A stretch of DNA of 64,000 nt, taken from assembly GCF_900116535.1 (NCBI RefSeq), contig NZ_FPAU01000006.1, positions 62,001-126,000 of the forward strand, given 5' to 3'. This stretch comes from Kosakonia arachidis (GTDB taxonomy: Bacteria > Pseudomonadota > Gammaproteobacteria > Enterobacterales > Enterobacteriaceae). Made by a program: the position numbers and the translations under genes. The stretch's first letter is position 1. Each line of letters opens with the position of its first letter. The notes below the pieces were generated by a model. That model was given only the letters and a program-made list of their open reading frames with translations. It did not search any database and was not told the DNA's origin. Positions 13,040 to 38,578 of this stretch are shown here, one piece after another.

Positions 13040-14218
13040 ATGCAATTGCGTAAATTACTTCTGCCAGGGCTGCTTTCCGTGATGTTATTAAGCGGCTGTT
13101 CCCTGTTTAATAGCGAAGAAGATGTTGTCAAAATGTCCCCGCTGCCAGTGGTTGAAAATCAGTTCACCCCGACAACCGCATGGCACACTTCCGTCGGCAA
13201 CGGTATCGGCGATTTCTATTCTAACCTGCACCCGGCATTTGCTGATGGCGTAGTGTATGCCGCCGATCGCCACGGTGTGGTGAAAGCGGTCAGTATTGAA
13301 GACGGCCATGAAATCTGGTCGGTTAATCTGGCAGAGAAAGACGGCTGGTTCTCCACGAGCCCTGCGCTGCTTTCCGGTGGTGTCACCGTTGCTGGCGGCC
13401 ATGTTTACGTGGGGACTGAAAAAGCGAAGGTTTATGCCCTGAATACCAGCGATGGTTCGCAGGCCTGGCAGGCGAAAGTTGCTGGTGAAGCACTTTCCCG
13501 CCCGGTTGTAAGCGATGGCCTGGTACTGATTCATACCAGTAACGGCCAGTTGCAGGCGCTGAATGAAAGCGACGGTGCGGTGAAATGGACGGTCAACCTG
13601 GATATGCCTGCGCTCTCTCTGCGCGGTGAATCTGCCCCGACCACCGCCTTTGGCGCTGCGATTGTTGGCGGTGATAACGGTCGTGTGAGCGCGGTACTGA
13701 TGCAACAGGGCCAGATGATTTGGCAGCAGCGTATCTCTCAGGCGAACGGCCCGACCGAAATTGATCGCCTGAGCGATGTAGATACTACGCCGGTTGTGGT
13801 TGATAACATCGTTTACGCACTGGCTTACAATGGCAACCTGACGGCGCTGGATCTGCGCAGCGGCCAGATCATGTGGAAACGTGAGCTGGGCTCGGTGAGC
13901 GACTTCATTGTTGACGGTAATCGCATCTACATTATCGATCAGAATGACCGCGTTCTGGCACTGACCACCGACGGTGGTGTGACCCTGTGGACGCAAAGCG
14001 ATCTGCTGCACCGTAACCTTACCGCTCCTGCGTTGTATAATGGTTACATCGTGACAGGCGATAGCGAAGGTTATGTTCACTGGATCAACGTTGAAGACGG
14101 TCGCTTCGTTGCGCAGCAGAAAGTCGACAGCTCTGGTTTCCTTACCGATCCTGTCGTTGCTGGCGGCAAGTTGCTGATCCAGGCGAAAGACGGCACGCTG
14201 TACGCACTCTCGCGCTAA
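13040..14218 (+). CDS. bamB: Outer membrane assembly lipoprotein BamB
   Basis: 392 residues, as in E. coli. The signal peptide ends in a clear lipobox (LLSGC, acylated cysteine at residue 20). The mature part is an eight-bladed beta-propeller with repeated GxVYALN/G-type blades (VYALNTSDG, LTALDLRSG, LYALSR). It is the BamB subunit of the beta-barrel assembly machine, anchored at the inner leaflet of the outer membrane. AGAGGGA precedes the ATG. A terminator follows. Confidence 0.98.
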   Translation: MQLRKLLLPGLLSVMLLSGCSLFNSEEDVVKMSPLPVVENQFTPTTAWHTSVGNGIGDFYSNLHPAFADGVVYAADRHGVVKAVSIEDGHEIWSVNLAEKDGWFSTSPALLSGGVTVAGGHVYVGTEKAKVYALNTSDGSQAWQAKVAGEALSRPVVSDGLVLIHTSNGQLQALNESDGAVKWTVNLDMPALSLRGESAPTTAFGAAIVGGDNGRVSAVLMQQGQMIWQQRISQANGPTEIDRLSDVDTTPVVVDNIVYALAYNGNLTALDLRSGQIMWKRELGSVSDFIVDGNRIYIIDQNDRVLALTTDGGVTLWTQSDLLHRNLTAPALYNGYIVTGDSEGYVHWINVEDGRFVAQQKVDSSGFLTDPVVAGGKLLIQAKDGTLYALSR

Positions 14219-14245
14219 CTGCGCTGGAATTGTCGCTCCTGAAGA

Positions 14246-14270
14246 CGGCTCCTGTTGCAGGAGCCGTTTT
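14246..14270 (+). terminator. Rho-independent terminator after bamB
   Basis: CGGCTCCTG at 14246-14254 pairs with CAGGAGCCG at 14258-14266 and is followed by TTTT. Confidence 0.85.
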
Positions 14271-14338
14271 CCTGTTTTTAAAACGCCGCGTCAATTGCGC
14301 CGTTTTGCTAATGAATTTTCTGTAATGAGGCTTTAAAC

Positions 14339-15814
14339 ATGGTACCTGTGGTCGCGCTTGTCGGGCGCCCTAACGTTGGAAAATCCACGCTATTTAACCG
14401 CTTAACACGCACACGTGATGCGCTGGTGGCCGATTTCCCGGGTCTGACTCGTGACCGTAAGTACGGTCGTGCTGAAGTAGAAGGCCGAGAATTCATCTGT
14501 ATCGATACCGGCGGTATTGATGGCACTGAAGATGGCGTGGAAACGCGCATGGCGGAACAGTCGCTGCTGGCGATTGAAGAAGCTGATGTCGTGCTGTTTA
14601 TGGTTGATGCCCGCGCGGGTTTGATGCCAGCGGATACAGCTATTGCTAAACACCTGCGTTCACGCGAAAAACCGACTTTCCTCGTTGCTAACAAAACGGA
14701 CGGTCTGGATCCGGATCAGGCAACGGCGGATTTCTACGCGCTGGGCCTGGGGGAAATTTATGCTATCGCCGCGTCTCATGGGCGCGGTGTCACCAGCCTG
14801 CTGGAACACGTGCTGATGCCGTGGATGGACGAACTGAATCCGCCGGAAGAGGTGGATGAAGACGCCGAATACTGGGCGAAGTTTGAAGCCAGTAAAAATG
14901 GCGAAGAAGAAGAGCCGGAAGAGGAATTTAACCCGCAGGATCTGCCAATCAAGCTGGCGATTGTCGGTCGTCCGAACGTCGGTAAGTCCACACTCACTAA
15001 CCGCATCCTCGGTGAAGACCGTGTGGTCGTTTACGACATGCCGGGCACCACGCGCGACAGTATCTATATTCCGATGCAGCGCGATGAACGTGAGTACGTA
15101 CTTATCGACACTGCCGGTGTACGTAAGCGCGGTAAAATCACTGATGTGGTGGAGAAATTCTCCGTTATCAAAACCCTGCAAGCGATTGAAGACGCCAACG
15201 TCGTATTGCTGGTGATTGATGCCCGCGAAGGTATCTCCGACCAGGATCTGTCGCTGCTGGGCTTTATCCTCAACAGTGGCCGCTCGCTGGTGATTGTCGT
15301 CAACAAGTGGGACGGTCTGAGCCAGGAAGTGAAAGAGCAGGTGAAAGAGACGCTGGATTACCGCCTCGGCTTTATCGACTTTGCCCGCGTGCATTTTATC
15401 TCTGCACTGCATGGCAGCGGCGTTGGCAACCTGTTCGAATCTGTACGCGAAGCCTATGACAGCTCTACCCGCCGTGTCAGCACCGCGCTGTTGACACGCA
15501 TTATGAATATGGCGGCGGAAGATCATCAGCCCCCGCTGGTACGTGGTCGCCGCGTGAAGCTGAAATATGCCCACGCTGGTGGTTATAACCCGCCGATTGT
15601 GGTGATCCACGGCAACCAGGTGAAAGACCTGCCGGATTCCTACAAACGCTATCTCATGAACTACTTCCGCAAATCACTGGATGTAATGGGTACGCCGATC
15701 CGTATTCAGTTCAAAGAAGGGGAGAACCCGTTTGCGGATAAACGCAATACCCTCACGCCGAACCAGCTGCGTAAGCGTAAGCGTCTGATTAAACACATTA
15801 AGAAAAGCAAATGA
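14339..15814 (+). CDS. der: Ribosome biogenesis GTPase Der (EngA)
   Basis: 491 residues (E. coli 490). Two tandem GTPase domains are present. Each has its own Walker A: GRPNVGKS at about residue 9 and again at about residue 209, joined by an acidic linker rich in glutamate. DTGG/DTAG switch-II and NKTD/NKWD specificity motifs follow in each. A C-terminal KH-like domain ends in a basic tail ([14 protein letters not shown]). It acts in 50S ribosomal subunit maturation. In E. coli the next gene is yfgJ; here a 5.3-kb insertion intervenes. Confidence 0.98.
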
Positions 15815-15863
15815 CGATTCACTGAAAATCATCTGCTCTCTAAAAATCCAGAAGCCCAAATTG

Positions 15864-16146
15864 TGAACTGCACCCCAAACGTTGGACACCCAACTGACTA
15901 AGGTGCAGTTTTTTTATGCGTAGTCGTATTGAGCTACGGCTTGATGCCGTACAACATTACCTTTCCGGTAAGGATGGTTTTCGTGAGGCCGCCGCACATT
16001 TTGGTGTTGGACGGACGGCCTTGTGCAGATGGGGTGCCGCTTAGGAGCTTCATGGCCCTGATGGGCTGACCTGGAAGGCCGATCAATTTTCGCACGAATT
16101 CACGCTCCGTGTTGTTATGGCTACCATCAGAGATAAACTCTCGTAG
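15864..16146 (+). mobile_element. IS3-family (IS150-like) left-end remnant with broken orfA
   Basis: TGAACTGCACCC at 15864 looks like the terminal repeat of IS150-group elements, which begin TGTACTGCACCC. From 15916 there is an orfA-like frame: 42 residues beginning MRSRIELRLDAVQHYL and including an HTH-type EAAAHFGVGRTALCRW, then an in-frame TAG at 16042, then a further 33 codons in the same frame (GPDGLTWKADQFS resembles OrfA of this group) to a second stop at 16144. No orfB or right end was found. It is therefore a dead fragment that marks the left border of the insertion after der. Confidence 0.7.
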
Positions 16147-16630
16147 GGTGAAATTTCCCTGGTAAATGCCATATAGATTGCGAAAGAACTATCTGCCCGA
16201 GTGACGTTAGGTTATGACGTTACCGGTGAACAGCAGGAGGGAAAGGCGATAATAATGCTTCCCGGCCTCACAGAATGCGAGAGCTCACATAGGCACGAGG
16301 CTGGGAGGGAATCAAAAAGTGTGACGGTAAATACCCTGCACCTGGCAGTGAAGATGATTTGATGAACGCCGTTGCCGCTACCATGAGTTGGGCTATGAGG
16401 TGGAGTTTCTGGATAATGGGGCGTTTGTCTTGATACGCAGAATGCTGAATTATTTACAGGGTCGAACCTAACGGTTCCTAAAACCATCGAGCAACGGATA
16501 ACTGTGAATCATCGAGTGTATTCAGCTTGGTGATCGGTAGCCATTGCATAAAGTCAGACATTTAATATGGTGTGATGAAAAATTGATCTCTACTATAGTC
16601 CGTTATTTTAATGTGGCTATAGGGAGTTCT
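16147..16630. other. Gene-free stretch between IS remnant and T6SS effector
   Basis: No convincing reading frame. Short frames such as one on the minus strand at 16212-16487 have no family features. The sequence looks like worn insertion-element or island debris. The last ~90 bases are AT-richer and presumably hold the promoter of the effector gene, but no clear -35/-10 pair was found. Confidence 0.4.
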
Positions 16631-25951: not shown

Positions 25952-27529
25952 ATGACGGACAATATTCATAAACATCGTATTCTTATCCTCGACTTCGGTT
26001 CTCAGTACACGCAACTGGTTGCACGCCGCGTGCGTGAGCTGGGCGTCTACTGCGAACTGTGGGCGTGGGATGTCACCGAAGCGCAGATCCGCGACTTCAA
26101 CCCAAGCGGCATCATCCTTTCCGGTGGCCCGGAAAGCACCACCGAAGAGAACAGCCCGCGTGCACCGCAGTATGTGTTCGAAGCGGGTGTTCCGGTACTT
26201 GGCGTGTGCTATGGCATGCAGACCATGGCGATGCAGCTTGGTGGCCACGTTGAAGGTTCTAACGAGCGTGAATTCGGTTACGCACAGGTTGAAGTGCAGA
26301 CTGACAGCGCGCTGGTTCGCGGCATTGAAGATTCCCTGACCGCTGAAGGCAAAGTGCTGCTAGACGTGTGGATGAGCCACGGCGACAAAGTGACGGCCAT
26401 TCCGTCTGATTTCGTGACCGTTGCCAGCACCGAAAGTTGCCCGTTCGCCATCATGGCAAATGAAGAAAAACGCTTCTACGGCGTGCAGTTCCACCCCGAA
26501 GTGACCCACACCCGTCAGGGCTTGCGTTTGCTGGAGCGCTTTGTGCGCGATATTTGCGAATGTGAAGCGCTGTGGACGCCCGCAAAAATCATCGACGATG
26601 CGGTTGAACGCATTCGTAAACAGGTTGGCGATGATAAAGTGATCCTCGGCCTTTCCGGTGGCGTGGACTCTTCTGTCACTGCGATGCTGCTGCACCGTGC
26701 CATCGGCACAAAACTGACCTGCGTATTCGTTGATAATGGCCTGCTGCGCCTGAACGAAGCTGCACAGGTGATGGACATGTTTGGCGATCATTTTGGTCTG
26801 AATATCGTTCACGTTCCGGCAGAAGATCGCTTCCTTTCAGCATTGGCTGGCGAGAACGATCCGGAAGCAAAACGCAAAATCATTGGCCGCGTATTCGTGG
26901 AAGTGTTCGACGAAGAAGCCCTGAAGCTGGAAGACGTGAAGTGGCTGGCGCAGGGTACCATCTACCCGGACGTGATCGAATCTGCCGCATCTGCAACCGG
27001 TAAAGCGCACGTTATTAAATCTCACCACAACGTGGGCGGCCTGCCGAAAGAGATGAAGATGGGCCTGGTTGAGCCGCTGAAAGAGCTGTTCAAAGACGAA
27101 GTGCGTAAAATTGGTCTGGAACTCGGCCTGCCGTACGATATGCTCTACCGTCACCCGTTCCCGGGCCCTGGCCTCGGTGTTCGTGTGCTGGGCGAAGTGA
27201 AGAAAGAGTACTGTGACCTGCTACGTCGCGCTGATGCGATCTTTATTGAAGAGCTGCATAGAGCTGACCTCTACAACAAAGTAAGCCAGGCCTTCACCGT
27301 GTTCCTGCCGGTCCGTTCCGTTGGCGTGATGGGTGATGGTCGTAAATACGACTGGGTTGTCTCTCTGCGTGCAGTCGAAACCATCGACTTTATGACCGCA
27401 CACTGGGCGCACCTGCCGTACGATTTCCTCGGACGCGTTTCCAACCGCATCATCAATGAAGTCAACGGTATTTCCCGCGTGGTGTATGACATCAGCGGCA
27501 AACCACCAGCTACCATTGAGTGGGAATGA
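25952..27529 (+). CDS. guaA: GMP synthase (glutamine-hydrolysing)
   Basis: 525 residues from ATG 25952, the E. coli length. The N-terminal class I glutamine amidotransferase domain has the nucleophile motif GVCYGMQ and the HPEV histidine; the ATP-pyrophosphatase domain has the P-loop LSGGVDSSV, and the C-terminal dimerisation domain ends KPPATIEWE. It converts XMP to GMP. The 3' end of guaA is a well-known integration site for mobile elements in bacteria, and here accessory DNA starts immediately at its stop codon. Confidence 0.98.
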
Positions 27530-27744
27530 TTTCCCAAAAGGAAACGTCTTGCACTAACAGGCACTAGAGCAAACTTAAGTCCGCGTAACAGCGGACTTTT
27601 TTGTTCTCACCCTTAAACCATCTCATGGGGAGGTGGTGATTGATTCTGTAAGGCGATAGCCTGAAGAATGCCCATGCCGGAATATCTCTGCTTACCCACC
27701 ACAAGTAAAAGGAGACAAACCGTGGCCAGCTTTTGTTGACCACT
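27528..27744 (+). repeat. Direct repeat copy 1 (217 bp), starting at the guaA stop
   Basis: This segment is repeated almost identically, in the same orientation, at 30530-30751. The differences seen by eye are a few point changes and a five-base insertion (GATGG) in the second copy. It starts within the guaA stop codon and includes the guaA terminator. It ends with GTGGCCAGC and a TTGACCAC, preceded by AAAAGGAG. The repeats bracket the FIST-chemoreceptor gene. Confidence 0.9.
27577..27604 (+). terminator. guaA terminator
   Basis: AAGTCCGC at 27577-27584 pairs with GCGGACTT at 27591-27598, followed by a T-run. It lies about 48 bases after the guaA stop and is duplicated as part of the direct repeat. 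Confidence 0.85.
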
Positions 27745-27748
27745 ACAA

Positions 27749-28322: not shown

Positions 28323-30293
28323 ATGTCATATATGTCGATAAAAAGCTTGTTAGCCGCAGCATTGCGCCGGAGTCGTTCCCGGCCAGCGAATGGTATTTAT
28401 GATTGCCGGAATATGCCCAGGTCGTTATCGGCAGCAGGCTTAAGTAATAAATCCCGTGGGATCCTGATGACATTTGTTCCGCCTAATGCCGATTATTCAA
28501 ACGTCAGTCGGGCATGGCAACAATTATCCTCTCCCGACTTAACCGTGCTCACCCTTTCTTCCAGTGGCGTGTTGAGTAGCAGCGGCCGCGAAACGACTTA
28601 TTGTGACGGCGCTGGGCAACAGGGCAGTTGGCTGTTACTGCCCGAATCACTGGTTGCACAGCACGAAGTACATATCGTTGATTTACATGTGAAAGATATG
28701 CATACCGCTCCGGATCGAATCAAGGCGATTCAGCTGGAGCTCGAAAGGTTGCAGGTACGTATGCCGCTCTCCTCAGAGAAAACTTTCGCTATGGTTTACT
28801 GTGACGGGCTCTCTGCATCAGAAGGCTTTTTGATGCAGGCCTGGTATAACTGCGGTCGTTTCCCCTGCCTTGCTATTGGCGGTTCGGCAGGAGGAAAACT
28901 AGCTTTCGATGGTACCTGGATAAGCGTGGGCGGTGAGGTAATGCAGGGAAAAGCAGTGATTATCTTTTGCACCATGTCGAGAGGGAAATCATTCGCTCCT
29001 TTCAAAAGCCAGAATTTTAAACCGTGCACTAAAAGCTGGCTGATTGCTCAGGCGGATCCGGTCGCCCGAACCGTCACGTCCGTGTTTAACGAACAGGGTC
29101 AGCAGATTCATTTTACGAGCGCGCTGGCAGAACATTTACGCTGTAATGAGCAACAATTAACCGAAAAACTTAAAGGGCTCACCTTCGGCGTGAAAGTAGG
29201 AGATGAATACTTCATTCGCTCTGTCTCGGCCATTGACAGTAACGGTGTGCACTTTTTTTGCGACCTTGAATTTGGTGATCGCCTGCATTTGCTCGAAGAA
29301 ACTGATTTTAAACAGGCGACACAGCAGGACTGGAATCATTTCATTACGGGGCTTGGTAAACCTGCGGCCGTCCTGATGAACGACTGTATTCTGCGTCGTC
29401 TGGGCAGTGAGTCTCATCTGCATAACGCACACTTTTTTAAAGGCTTACCTGCTGCAGGATTTTCCAGCTTTGGGGAAATTCTTGGGGTGCCAATTAACCA
29501 GACGTTATCCGCATTGGTTTTTTTCAACCATGATGTGAAAGCAATGACGAATTTCCCGGTGGAATATGCCAGCTATGCGGGGCACTATGCCCAGCGTGCG
29601 CTTCGTCGTTGGGAAGCGCTGAATGATTTCCAGAGTGGTGTAATTTCTCGCGTGGTCGCTTATCAACAAAAACTGGGCCCGCTAATGACGGCATTACCGA
29701 TGCTCGAAGCAGCGACCCAGACGCAGAATGAAACCTTGGGGATGGCGGAAAACAGTATTCGCTCTATCAGCGATATTGCTATCCAAAGCCAACAGGCGCA
29801 GAACCGTTTAGTTGAAGGGTTGGACGATCTGGAGAAAATATCTGCAGGTATTAATGAAATTACCAGTGGTATCAGTAACATTGCATTTCAGACAAACTTA
29901 CTGGCGCTCAATGCCGCTGTAGAAGCTGCGCGGGCTGGTGACGCCGGGCGTGGTTTTGCCGTTGTTGCAAGCGAAGTGCGGCGGTTGGCACGTTCTTCGA
30001 AAGAACAGGCGGATGCCACCGCCGCAAACATTAATCAGGCGGTCACCACGATTTCACGCATCCGCAACGTTGCGAACAATACCGTGGAAACGGCCAGCAA
30101 CATGGCACAGCACTCAATTTCCGCAGCTGATACGATTGCGACTATGAGCAGTAAAACCAATGATGAACGGGAAAGAATCGCCACACATCTAAGCAGCCTG
30201 CATGCCCTGACCGCAGGTATGGATGCCATGCAAGAAGCGGTTGCGCAACTGACAGTATTGCAGAAACTCTCCACCCGACACGACCATCACTGA
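28323..30293 (+). CDS. Cytoplasmic chemoreceptor-like protein: FIST sensory domain plus MCP signalling domain
   Basis: 656 residues. The first ~70 residues are variable. A FIST N-terminal domain follows (about residues 70-280, with the glycine-rich [14 protein letters not shown]), then a FIST C-terminal domain (about 290-430, including [18 protein letters not shown]). The C-terminal ~220 residues form a methyl-accepting signalling coiled coil with the hairpin tip [37 protein letters not shown] around residue 520-556. No transmembrane helix or signal peptide is visible, so it is probably soluble. No C-terminal NWETF-type CheR tether is seen. FIST domains are thought to bind small ligands such as amino acids. 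GGTGAGGAT precedes the ATG. The gene is bracketed by the direct repeats. Confidence 0.88.
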
Positions 30294-30529: not shown

Positions 30530-30751
30530 GATTTCCCAAAAGGGAACGTCTTGCACTAACAGGCACTAGAGCAAACTTAAGTCCGCGTAAGAGCGGACTT
30601 TTTTGTTCTCACCCTTAAACCATTTCATGGGATGGGGAGGTGGTGATTGATCCTGTAAGGCGATAGCCTGAAGAATGCCCATGCCGGAATATCTCTGCTT
30701 ACCCACCACAAGTAAAAGGAGACAAACCGTGGCCAGCTTTTGTTGACCACT
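30530..30751 (+). repeat. Direct repeat copy 2 (222 bp)
   Basis: Near-identical to 27528-27744, including a second copy of the guaA terminator stem (AAGTCCGC 30579-30586, GCGGACTT 30593-30600, then T-run) although no gene ends just upstream. The copy has a five-base insertion (GATGG) and a few substitutions. It marks the far end of the segment carrying the chemoreceptor gene. Confidence 0.9.
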
Positions 30752-30849
30752 TCAGCTAAAGTCGTGGCGATTTCGAGTGAGTCAACCATTCTGTTAGTAT
30801 CCTGGCCAAACGAGATTGTTTAATATTAATACCGAGAGAGCGGCCATTC

Positions 30850-34531: not shown

Positions 34532-36541
34532 ATGTTTAAACGTCTCCTTTCTGCCATTAGCGGCAAAAAAACGCCGGAAGCCGAAGCCCATGCAGCTGAA
34601 CCACCGCAACATGACGAGCTGATCGTGGCGTACGATGCCTACGGACGTGAGTTGCAGATCCCGCGCAGTGAGTGGCGTGAGAAGGTTTTCCTGCCGTCGC
34701 TGGAAGAGAAACGCAATGATCCCGCCGAACTCTATCAGGCGATTCTCGGCGGTCTGAACGATGGTTTTGCAGCGGATTTGATCCCCGCCGCCGAACGTCT
34801 GGTGGAGATTGACGATATTCCCGAGCGCAGCCACACCCTTCAGGGTATCGTGCTGATGAAAAATGGCGAGCTGGCGGCGGCGGAAAATACGCTGCGGGCG
34901 GGCATCGCCAAAGTGGGCGAAACCGGCACATTGCTGACCAATTTAGCCAAAGTATTTGCCGGGCGCGGTGAAGAGCAGCGTGCGGAAGAGACATTGTGGC
35001 AGGCGATTCAGGCCGATCCGAATCAGGACAACGGCCTGTTATGGTGGGTGAGCATTCAAGAGGAGCGTGGCGGCGAAAACGCCTATGTTGCAGCGCTGAA
35101 AACCGCATCGGCATTGCCCGGTAGCTGGCGCGCGCAGTTATGGCTGGCGCGTTATTATCTGGAACACCAGGATATTGCCGCTGCCCGTGCGCTCTACGAG
35201 CAAGTACTCAGTACCGGTCTGTATGACGGCAGCGCGCTGATGATGATTTCCGGCGATCTCGGCAATAACGGGCAGATCGCGCTGATCGCCGAACTGGTAG
35301 CTCCGGTGTATGACGAACAGCGCCACGAGCCGATGGTCGGTCTTAATCTGCTGCGTGCCTGGCAGGCGCTGGGCAATGTCGAGGAGGGCGAAAAGCTGCT
35401 GGCGCGGATGTACGCGCTGGGGTATATGCCGCTGAAGCAGCATCTTGATGAATTCGCCAAAGCCTTTCAGGAGATGCAGAAGCACGCTGCTACCCCGACG
35501 CCTGCTGATGTTTCCGAACTGAAGTTCAGCACACAGTCGCTTACTCAACCGATCTGGCATTACGGCCTCTGCAATGCCAACTGGCTGTTTGTGCAGAAGC
35601 CGGAAGAGTCGCCGACTGTCGGTTTCTTTGCAATGTCGAAACGCGACGATGGCCCGGAGCGCAGCGAAGCACAACGCGAGGATGATATTGGCCGTCTGGC
35701 GCGGGCGATCCCGCTCTATCTTGCCGAAGCAGCGCACTACTGGAGCGACTATGCCAGTCGTTTCTATGTACAGGTGGTGGAAGGCGGCGGGCCGGTACTG
35801 ATTGGTGGTGAAATGGACGGCAACGCGCTGTTCGATATCGTCCCACCAGCCATGAACTACTTTGTTACGGGGACTGTGGGTTGCAGCGGGGAAGGGGAAC
35901 AGCGCGAGTGGCACATCACGTTGAGCCTCTGGGACTGCGCAACGCGCACGAAAAAAGTCAGCGAAGCGGGCCGCAGCAAACAGGCTGAACTGGGCACGCG
36001 GGTGCTCGATCTTGAACAGCGTCTGCTCGCTGCGATCGGTCTGACGCGCCAGCAACCGCTGGATGGGTTTTATCTGCGCCCGTCTGCGGAGGAGATGGAT
36101 ATTTATCTGGGCGAACTGGCGCAGGCGTTCACGCTAACGCTGGTGGTAAATAAAACCACACCGCGCGAGGCGATGTGGGGCGAGCGGGCGATGCTTGACT
36201 GGCCGCTGCATATGGCGCTTCAGTGGCCACAGGTTGAGGTGCCAAAGCTGATGTATCTCTCCGGGCTGGGAAAAGCGTTTGATTATCACTCGGAGGCGCT
36301 GGCCGAGTACCAAAGCCGCACGCTGGAGTTGCTGCGCGAAGCCGAACGCAATAACAGCCCGGCTGCGCTTCTTGCACCGCTGGTGTGGAAAATCTTCGGC
36401 ATGGACGAGAAATTTGCCGCGCACCGGAAAAATTTGTCCGCAGACGAGGGGAGTGCGTATCGCGACTGGCTGGCGCGTGTCGCGGAGAAGCCGTTATTTG
36501 CGGCAGTCTCGGAAGGCGTTGAGAAATCTAAGGGGCAATAA
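34532..36541 (+). CDS. TPR protein of unknown function, partner of the DUF4062-SIR2 protein
   Basis: 669 residues from ATG 34532 (MFKRLLSAISGKK); longer TTG-initiated versions are less likely. There is no signal peptide. A short basic N-terminus and acidic linker precede several TPR-like helical repeats (about residues 70-330, for example LLTNLAKVFAGRGEEQRAEETLWQAIQADP). A segment at about residues 441-500 (YFVTGTVGCSG...WHITLSLWDCATRTKKV) resembles the TolB/FlgO-type beta domain often fused to TPRs in sensory proteins. The C-terminal ~180 residues are helical and unrecognised. It ends one base before the DUF4062-SIR2 gene, so the two form an operon and probably a complex. Base composition is backbone-like. 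No function is known to me. Confidence 0.8.
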   Translation: MFKRLLSAISGKKTPEAEAHAAEPPQHDELIVAYDAYGRELQIPRSEWREKVFLPSLEEKRNDPAELYQAILGGLNDGFAADLIPAAERLVEIDDIPERSHTLQGIVLMKNGELAAAENTLRAGIAKVGETGTLLTNLAKVFAGRGEEQRAEETLWQAIQADPNQDNGLLWWVSIQEERGGENAYVAALKTASALPGSWRAQLWLARYYLEHQDIAAARALYEQVLSTGLYDGSALMMISGDLGNNGQIALIAELVAPVYDEQRHEPMVGLNLLRAWQALGNVEEGEKLLARMYALGYMPLKQHLDEFAKAFQEMQKHAATPTPADVSELKFSTQSLTQPIWHYGLCNANWLFVQKPEESPTVGFFAMSKRDDGPERSEAQREDDIGRLARAIPLYLAEAAHYWSDYASRFYVQVVEGGGPVLIGGEMDGNALFDIVPPAMNYFVTGTVGCSGEGEQREWHITLSLWDCATRTKKVSEAGRSKQAELGTRVLDLEQRLLAAIGLTRQQPLDGFYLRPSAEEMDIYLGELAQAFTLTLVVNKTTPREAMWGERAMLDWPLHMALQWPQVEVPKLMYLSGLGKAFDYHSEALAEYQSRTLELLREAERNNSPAALLAPLVWKIFGMDEKFAAHRKNLSADEGSAYRDWLARVAEKPLFAAVSEGVEKSKGQ

Positions 36542-37819
36542 ATGGCCAATAAATTACGCGTGTTCATTAGCAGCACGATGAAGGATCTGCGCAACGAGCG
36601 GCAGGAAGTGGTCGATCGGTTAAATTTTCTCGGTTTTGAGCCAGTGAATGCCGAAGAGTTTAGCCCAAACGGGCAGACCAGTTGGGAAGTGATTGAGCCG
36701 AAAATCCGCGATTGTCACCTGTTTGTTCTGCTGCTTGGCGACAGTTACGGTTGGGAGCCTGACAGCGGTTATGGCGGTGGTGAGGGGAAATCCGTCACGC
36801 ATCTTGAATATGATGCTGCTCGCGCGCTGAATATTCCCGTGTTGCCCTTTATGAAAAAGCTGGACTATGGCAGTAAAGAGGACAAGCTGCGGGATGCATT
36901 TCGCACGGCGGTGGCTGCGTGGGATGGGGGGCATTTTCGCGCTGAGTTTGATTTGGCGAAGGATCTTGCTGATAAAGTGGCGAAGGCACTGGTAGCTTTC
37001 TGTTCCGAGACTGCACTGAAAGAGCTGCTGAGCCTGCGCGATGGACAGTTAACGCCGCCCCATGCCGCTGTGCAATCAGCCGAACCACTGCCAGTGCATG
37101 ACGATGATAAATGGGTGCTTCTCGGCGGTGCAGGGCTGTCGATATCTGCTGGTTACCCGACTGCGAACCTGATTATCAGTAGCCTTGCTGCGCAACTCTG
37201 GCCAGATGTTGCAGCCAGTGATATTTACACCCGCTATTCGTTTGACGAAGTGGCAGGGTATTACGAAAGCCAGCGCGGGCGCGATGCGTTGCTGCAGGAT
37301 GTTAAAGCCTTACTCGACACGCCGCAGAAGGTCTGGCCGACCGAGGCTCATTTTGAAGCAGTGAAGAAGTTCAAAACTATCCTCACCACCAACTACGATC
37401 AACTCTTCGAACTTGCCTGCATGACAAGTGGTATTCCGTATGTGGTGATCACGCCGTCCGATCCGAAACCGCCGGAAAAGGGCAAAGTCTCGATCATTAA
37501 GCTAAGTGGCACTATCTCCGAACTGGAAAGTCTGCGGCTTACGGCGAAGGATCTCCAGGAAGTGATGGCCAATGAGGCATTCTTTAGGATGCTCAAACAG
37601 AGCCTCGCGGGTCGCAAAGTCGTGGTTGTCGGACATGCTTTGCGCGATGCTCATGTGTTAAAGGCGCTGACCGAATCCGGAATCTCCGGACCAGGCCTCT
37701 ACGTGAGCCCTAATCCGGGACCTGCGGCGGATATCACTCTGCACCGCTTTAACCTGCAAGTGAAACCCCAGAAAGCCGATGCGTTTCTTGCCAGCTTCAA
37801 TCCCGACGTCGTGATGTAA
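36542..37819 (+). CDS. DUF4062 plus SIR2-like domain protein
   Basis: 425 residues; AAGGGG precedes the ATG. Residues 5-150 form a DUF4062 domain, a TIR/nucleoside-deoxyribosyltransferase-like fold: VFISSTMKDLRNER, IRDCHLFVLLLGDSYGW and SVTHLEYDAARALNIPV. Residues 190-420 form a SIR2-like NAD-binding domain: GGAGLSISAGYP at 195-206, TTNYD at 282-286 with N284, and GHALRDAHV at 364-372. The position that is normally the catalytic histidine in KLHG reads KLSG (S322). SIR2 and TIR-like domains in bacterial immunity consume NAD or sense nucleotide signals, so with its TPR partner this may be a defence module; that is inference. A terminator follows directly. Confidence 0.85.
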   Translation: MANKLRVFISSTMKDLRNERQEVVDRLNFLGFEPVNAEEFSPNGQTSWEVIEPKIRDCHLFVLLLGDSYGWEPDSGYGGGEGKSVTHLEYDAARALNIPVLPFMKKLDYGSKEDKLRDAFRTAVAAWDGGHFRAEFDLAKDLADKVAKALVAFCSETALKELLSLRDGQLTPPHAAVQSAEPLPVHDDDKWVLLGGAGLSISAGYPTANLIISSLAAQLWPDVAASDIYTRYSFDEVAGYYESQRGRDALLQDVKALLDTPQKVWPTEAHFEAVKKFKTILTTNYDQLFELACMTSGIPYVVITPSDPKPPEKGKVSIIKLSGTISELESLRLTAKDLQEVMANEAFFRMLKQSLAGRKVVVVGHALRDAHVLKALTESGISGPGLYVSPNPGPAADITLHRFNLQVKPQKADAFLASFNPDVVM

Positions 37820-37846
37820 ACGCCATAAGGCGTAATGTGTCCCTTT

Positions 37847-37885
37847 ATCGTCAGCAATATTCACCGATTTGCTGGCGATTTTTTT
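37847..37885 (+). terminator. Terminator of the TPR/DUF4062-SIR2 operon
   Basis: ATCGTCAGCAA at 37847-37857 pairs (one G-T) with TTGCTGGCGAT at 37869-37879, followed by a run of T to 37885. Confidence 0.85.
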
Positions 37886-37949
37886 GCAGCGTCTAAAGGA
37901 CATGCAAAAGCCCACGCGTCTGAGCGTGTACAAAAAAACGGGTTAAATC

Positions 37950-38141: not shown

Positions 38142-38414
38142 TGTGGTTCCTTTAGGAATACCCGATTAACGGGCGACAAGGCTATTAAGGCACAGTCTCC
38201 GGGGAAGGTCAAATAAGCCTGCAGTTCGTAAAAATATGATTTTATTTATATATTAAAAATCAAATGGTTACGTTGAAAATATAAAATCAAAAATACAGAT
38301 AAATTACATAGAAATAAAACTCGCTGATGTATTTTTTGATTTATATCAATTTTTACTGGCCGTGCAAAACGAAAATTTCTCCCTGTTATTCAACGGGTGT
38401 TTTCCCCTTGTGCC
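38142..38414. other. AT-rich gap between yfgG and the yfgF remnant
   Basis: No gene is seen. The right part (38220-38380) is very AT-rich. It includes the yfgG promoter region and whatever remains after loss of yfgF. Confidence 0.4.
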
Positions 38415-38578
38415 TTATTGAAAGTGAAGAGATACCCAGCACGGCTGTCGCGCTGGGTATCGATTATCTACAGGGTTATATGATGGGTAAACCCGCTCCG
38501 CTGGTGACGCTGGCCGAAGAGTCAGCGGAGGGCGGCTCAGGCCGCCACTTCCGGAGCCTGTTCTTCTTCGATTTTTAA
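38415..38578 (+). pseudogene. yfgF: C-terminal remnant of the EAL-domain phosphodiesterase gene yfgF
   Basis: The frame reads IESEEIPSTAVALGIDYLQGYMMGKPAPLV, which is the last ~30 residues of an EAL domain (ESVET...LGxDYxQGYxxGKPxPL). Upstream of it there is only AT-rich non-coding sequence. yfgF lies convergent with ppx in E. coli at exactly this place, so almost the whole gene has been deleted. The scrap overlaps the 3' end of ppx and contains a 10-bp perfect stem (38431-38440 with 38452-38461). Confidence 0.75.

Follow-up and report, generated by a model that had tools for sequence, protein, structure and literature searches.

We analysed a 64,000-nucleotide stretch of the Kosakonia arachidis genome (contig NZ_FPAU01000006.1, positions 62,001 to 126,000; hereafter the window) around a gene for a 425-residue protein that joins a DUF4062 (TIR-like) half to a SIR2-like half and lies directly behind a gene for a tetratricopeptide repeat (TPR) protein. 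We consider it fairly probable that the 425-residue protein functions by itself, as a TIR-like nicotinamide adenine dinucleotide (NAD) hydrolase (NADase) regulated by a degenerate SIR2 half. The DUF4062 half would stay off until infection and would then deplete NAD+ and abort phage growth, while the SIR2 half would serve as the regulatory part, binding NAD+ or a similar nucleotide, or else a phage protein, and aligning the protomers so that the TIR-like halves turn active; this sensor or scaffold role and the trigger of the protein are what we infer. An earlier note on this DNA had proposed a two-gene defence system in which the TPR protein senses and the SIR2 protein executes. There are good grounds for a defence role of the second protein, given its DUF4062 family and defence-gene neighbours, but a two-gene system is not supported, nor is the proposed division of labour: the genes occur apart and the SIR2 half is without the NADase His. 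The roles are probably reversed.

The DUF4062 half and its homologs

36542..37819, + strand: DUF4062-SIR2 protein, 425 residues from the ATG at 36542
36557..36820, + strand: DUF4062 (TIR-like) domain, residues 6-93, Pfam PF13271
36806..36808, + strand: codon of E89, candidate catalytic Glu, opposite an Ala in the KpSwz chain as deposited (see below)

The DUF4062 domain was recovered by Pfam with E 3.6e-23 and 82 bits, against a curated cut-off of 24.7. DUF4062 has been described as a TIR-like NADase and anti-phage family, whose tested members are NADases in anti-phage defence (preprint PMC13174449). The solved construct of its member KpSwz (Swarozyc) carries E97A, and E97 is needed for defence and NADase activity (PMC13174449). 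A profile of ten homologs recovered the chains deposited for KpSwz with E 1.2e-18 and placed E89, invariant in 16/16 homolog rows, opposite an Ala of the chain, which by its numbering should be KpSwz residue 97. By analogy with the tested members, the DUF4062 half is a predicted NADase, and the window's protein would share their activity.

Scanning a species-representative collection yielded 25 loci, ten of which align across the whole protein and one, from Mesorhizobium (L052), in two pieces. The unrooted tree holds 16 rows (five Kosakonia copies, three rhizobial plasmids and eight other genomes). L052, whose second half lies in another frame, was excluded from the tree and alignments; its DUF4062-SIR2 gene, split over two frames at L052:8001-9277, stands beside an intact-looking SIR2-HerA pair. 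Genome draws returned only the window's own copy, both among 392 genomes of the taxonomic family (E <= 1e-20) and among 369 of the class (E <= 1e-40). The three rhizobial plasmids were typed conjugative, and the single match among viral contigs (IMG/VR), on a contig of 41,989 bases, appears to be the contig of the homolog locus L045.

Known multi-gene systems were found near five of the 12 non-Kosakonia loci: DarTG (L002), Lamassu (L003), Hachiman (L053) and SIR2-HerA (L052, with homologs in L071). Neighbours in L049 (caspase-like) and L050 (kinase) matched broad models only, and neighbours scanned individually for L047 and L048 had no defence match. L045, L046 and L051 were covered by the pooled scan only, with methyltransferase models in L045. 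That scan took 56 chosen proteins, from 122 non-self open reading frames (ORFs) of nine loci, together, and the results given rest on 25 of 119 families; ten of the 56 were also run singly, and six proteins of L002, L003 and the Kosakonia locus L020 separately. Among 194 ORFs of at least 80 residues in 13 loci (the 12 and Kosakonia genome G400), some with short flanks (L049 is a 5.2 kb contig), only DUF4062-SIR2 occurred in more than two loci; SIR2-HerA homologs occurred in two (L052 and L071).

A role outside phage defence, for example as a sensor of NAD+ or adenosine diphosphate ribose levels that arrests stressed cells, or as a toxin-like selfish gene, seems unlikely. A Phd/ParE pair lies near the gene in the window, the gene has no known phage trigger, and the phage record collection gave no match to DUF4062-SIR2. 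However, the rare and patchy occurrence described above is the pattern of defence genes, copies reside on plasmids typed conjugative and near known defence genes, and no candidate antitoxin neighbour recurs among the ORFs compared in the 13 loci.

The SIR2 half

37097..37810, + strand: SIR2-like domain, residues 186-423, from Pfam and structure alignment
37391..37393, + strand: codon of N284 (TTNYD), SIR2 catalytic Asn position, invariant in 16/16 rows
37505..37507, + strand: codon of S322 (KLSG), a position holding His in KomC, ThsA and three homologs

The SIR2-like domain also proved real: Pfam SIR2_2 matched residues 279-378 (E 5.7e-17), and the C-terminal half aligned across about 230 residues with SIR2 structures, keeping the GAG motif and the Asn at the catalytic position. 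The column of the catalytic His (H146 in KomC, H171 in DSR2) holds Ser in 5/5 Kosakonia copies, the window's protein included, and Asp in the first ORF of L052, read alone. Judged from these residues, the SIR2 half has probably lost its NADase chemistry, and its lack of the NADase His makes the DUF4062 half the likelier executor. Tentatively, and with a chance a little short of even, we propose that a former SIR2 NADase has turned into a regulator of the fused TIR-like NADase. The steps may be visible in sister branches, from His (a possible double NADase) through Asp to Ser/Ala (an inactive enzyme retained as an NAD-gated sensor or polymerising scaffold), although the direction is one that we infer from an unrooted tree.

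The His is kept in three of the 16 homologs (Desulfomonile, a Chloroflexi metagenome-assembled genome and Minicystis; loci L048, L049 and L051), all from other phyla, with the Asp-bearing L047 on the same branch; these are possible double NADases. Their His means that this branch may be a double enzyme, but that the window's protein is a double executioner with DUF4062 and SIR2 both active is improbable, given the Ser in all five Kosakonia copies and the lowered NADase activity of DSR2 after replacement of its His by Ala.

The TPR gene, the pairing and the rest of the window

34532..36541, + strand: TPR protein, 669 residues from the ATG at 34532; stop codon 36539-36541
36491..36538, + strand: C-terminal tail of the TPR protein, 16 residues, from stop-codon loss; two relatives stop there
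36491..37846, + strand: inserted segment (~1.36 kb) with the DUF4062-SIR2 gene, from the TPR stop position to the terminator
37847..37885, + strand: intrinsic terminator, hairpin and T run; a similar hairpin lies 3' of the TPR gene in L020, which is without DUF4062-SIR2

Both ORFs were found where the earlier note had placed them; the TPR ORF extends to 692 residues if an upstream TTG is taken as the start. Its TPR repeats were confirmed, Pfam returning TPR models only (best E 6.4e-7, with TPR_19 and TPR_14 exceeding their cut-offs), whereas the TolB-like segment also claimed is not supported, none of 12 TPR homologs matching a TolB family in Pfam at E <= 1. PDB searches with the repeat part gave mainly TPR chains, to which a single-sequence search added weak antibody light-chain matches, and in the predicted structure only residues 44-300 were well modelled (mean predicted local distance difference test score 48.6). 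The family is conserved across about 655 residues, and Pfam matches nothing in the C-terminal half of the window's protein, a part of about 350 residues.

The strong terminator that the note saw closing the operon is present, as a hairpin at 37847-37879 (-15.1 kcal/mol, z -4.2) whose 11-bp stem encloses a loop of 11 nt, with a T run; a terminator scan with a loop limit of 8 omits it. The two genes are probably co-transcribed. The abutting TAA-ATG junction, by contrast, exists in the window but is not conserved among Kosakonia carriers. Two of the three other carriers of the pair (L039, L040) end the TPR gene at residue 653, 46-49 bp before the second ATG; this stop codon is lost in the window and in L041, so the abutting junction reflects stop-codon loss. 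All four carriers share AAGGGGC 5' of the second ATG.

Comparison with L020 revealed how the pair may have formed. DNA homology ends at the position of the TPR stop, 36489, to resume in BLAST at 37906, and the terminator at 37847 has, on our reading of the sequence, a counterpart directly 3' of the L020 TPR gene; the break and this counterpart indicate a one-gene segment of about 1.36 kb between TPR stop and terminator. Beyond the pair carriers, an exact hairpin search found only L020 (the same genome as L008), and this single outgroup sets the right border of the segment. In G400 (L042), a 66.6% identical DUF4062-SIR2 gene lies 5' of yfgG without a TPR gene and adjoins a gene for a 1277-residue protein that is 74% identical to an L020 protein that scored 1666.7 bits against the PADLOC PD-Lambda-4_A model. 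As PD-Lambda-4_A-like proteins (1276-1277 residues) occupy the same interval in L042 and L020, the interval looks like a Kosakonia cargo site for defence genes.

The TPR gene was matched (E <= 1e-10) in 13/392 family genomes, two of them partially, and in the class-wide draw in 1/274 genomes, the window's own; across the family, genus and class draws its matches were confined to the window's taxonomic family. Among plasmids, only a weak match in Paraburkholderia came up, spanning 11% of the query (E 9e-6). Among 15 Kosakonia genomes, seven carry the TPR gene and five DUF4062-SIR2, with both in four, DUF4062-SIR2 only in one and neither in seven. In the K. sacchari SP1 copy (L044), the second protein is 94% identical. 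Adjacency of the two genes, which the note had put forward as a check, was seen in these 4/15 Kosakonia genomes and nowhere else, and only the window's genome among the 392 of the family has both.

ORFs were listed around ten near-full-length TPR genes of relatives, with the downstream gene typed in four. Behind the TPR gene stand a helix-turn-helix (HTH) gene with a HipA-like gene (L019), an AraC-type regulator (L021, with a homolog in L023), an opposite-strand major facilitator superfamily transporter (L025), a family-less gene (L018) or directly yfgG (L020, L043). Modular effectors behind the TPR gene were considered and rejected, no downstream family being widely common among the ten. Within the fetched stretch, ppx and ppk follow the TPR gene in 5/10 of these relatives and likewise in L043 and the window, where ppx and ppk were identified by Pfam and yfgG, pdeF and ppx are named after E. 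coli.

It is very improbable that the pair forms a defence system with a sensing TPR protein, an executing DUF4062-SIR2 protein and translation coupled through the TAA-ATG junction: the genes are adjacent on one strand before one terminator, stand side by side in four Kosakonia genomes and are both under purifying selection, but the TPR gene lacks its partner in 12 of the 13 family genomes where it was matched (only partially in two of these 13) and in 3/7 within the genus, the partner lacks the TPR gene in 1/5 within the genus and in non-Kosakonia loci (flanks searched only), Kosakonia genomes show a weak association between them (Fisher p 0.12, relatedness uncorrected), the abutting junction is not conserved, and hipA-like, AraC-type or other genes take the place behind the TPR gene in other genomes (typed in 4/10 relatives). 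The distribution of both genes thus disfavours the TPR protein as a defence partner. The TPR gene is probably the older resident of the interval, likely a functionally unrelated neighbour of DUF4062-SIR2 by history, and the proposed defence system probably does not depend on it.

Other features of the window were also recorded. At 38224-38578, deletion has left little more than a stub of pdeF (yfgF), a gene for about 740 residues that L039-L043 carry between yfgG and ppx; homology to L039 skips from 14038 to 16211 at window position 38418. Direct repeats of about 225 bp (27528-27747 and 30530-30754), which share 97-98% identity and were called as two adjacent families, begin at the end of a guaA-like ORF and flank a gene for a 656-residue FIST/chemotaxis-receptor protein (28323-30293), as if this gene had entered by an integration that duplicated its site. 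The window also has sequences that we take to be guaA and guaB. An ORF at 20155-20787 matches roughly half of the model for DndB (E 6.2e-17), whose family is associated with DNA sulfur modification.

Standing of the proposal and known systems

Several observations weigh against a DUF4062 NADase governed by a degenerate SIR2 half. An Asp or Ser in place of the His does not alone prove loss of NADase activity, and H365, a His after the VVG motif that is common in the His-lacking rows, could in principle compensate. The pair is kept adjacent in four Kosakonia genomes with both genes under purifying selection (ratio of nonsynonymous to synonymous substitution rates 0.13-0.14 for the TPR gene), and the G400 comparison for selection has near-saturated synonymous divergence (1.8 in the SIR2 half). 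The frequencies of defence neighbours come from carrier loci only, without control loci, and 7/12 loci had no clear multi-gene system among the proteins tested. The literature covered demonstrates no activity for any DUF4062-SIR2 protein. Finally, the auxiliary domain of the solved Swarozyc member is a winged helix rather than SIR2 (PMC13174449), and the trigger of that member is therefore not transferable.

The protein resembles KpSwz in its N-terminal DUF4062, the position of the catalytic Glu, its apparently one-protein organisation, its proximity to other defence genes and its patchy spread, but KpSwz ends in an HTH/winged portal-binding domain where a SIR2 fold stands here (PMC13174449). 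Additional enzymatic domains are mentioned in general terms in the available part of that preprint, and its supplement may show a DUF4062-SIR2 member. It was the only paper returned on DUF4062 together with SIR2; three others returned on DUF4062 and phage look off-topic from their listing and opening abstract lines, and no paper was returned on TIR-SIR2. With ThsA (Thoeris), KomC and DSR2, the protein shares the SIR2 fold, the GAG motif and the catalytic Asn; in those proteins SIR2 is the executor with a catalytic His, whereas here it has Ser and a fused TIR-like domain. KomC belongs to the Kongming system. In Thoeris, TIR makes the signal and SIR2 executes; TIR-like and SIR2-like domains are combined here too, but in one fused protein and with the roles likely reversed.

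If the proposal is correct, selection would have retained an immune NADase domain in a reduced role, as a sensor or scaffold, beside sister proteins that still look catalytic, and the DUF4062 defence family would extend to a new architecture. The series of His, Asp and Ser/Ala would then be available for studying how a SIR2 domain might gate TIR-like NADases. The locus also indicates that the arrival of a single cargo gene downstream of a resident one can create what looks like a two-gene defence operon.
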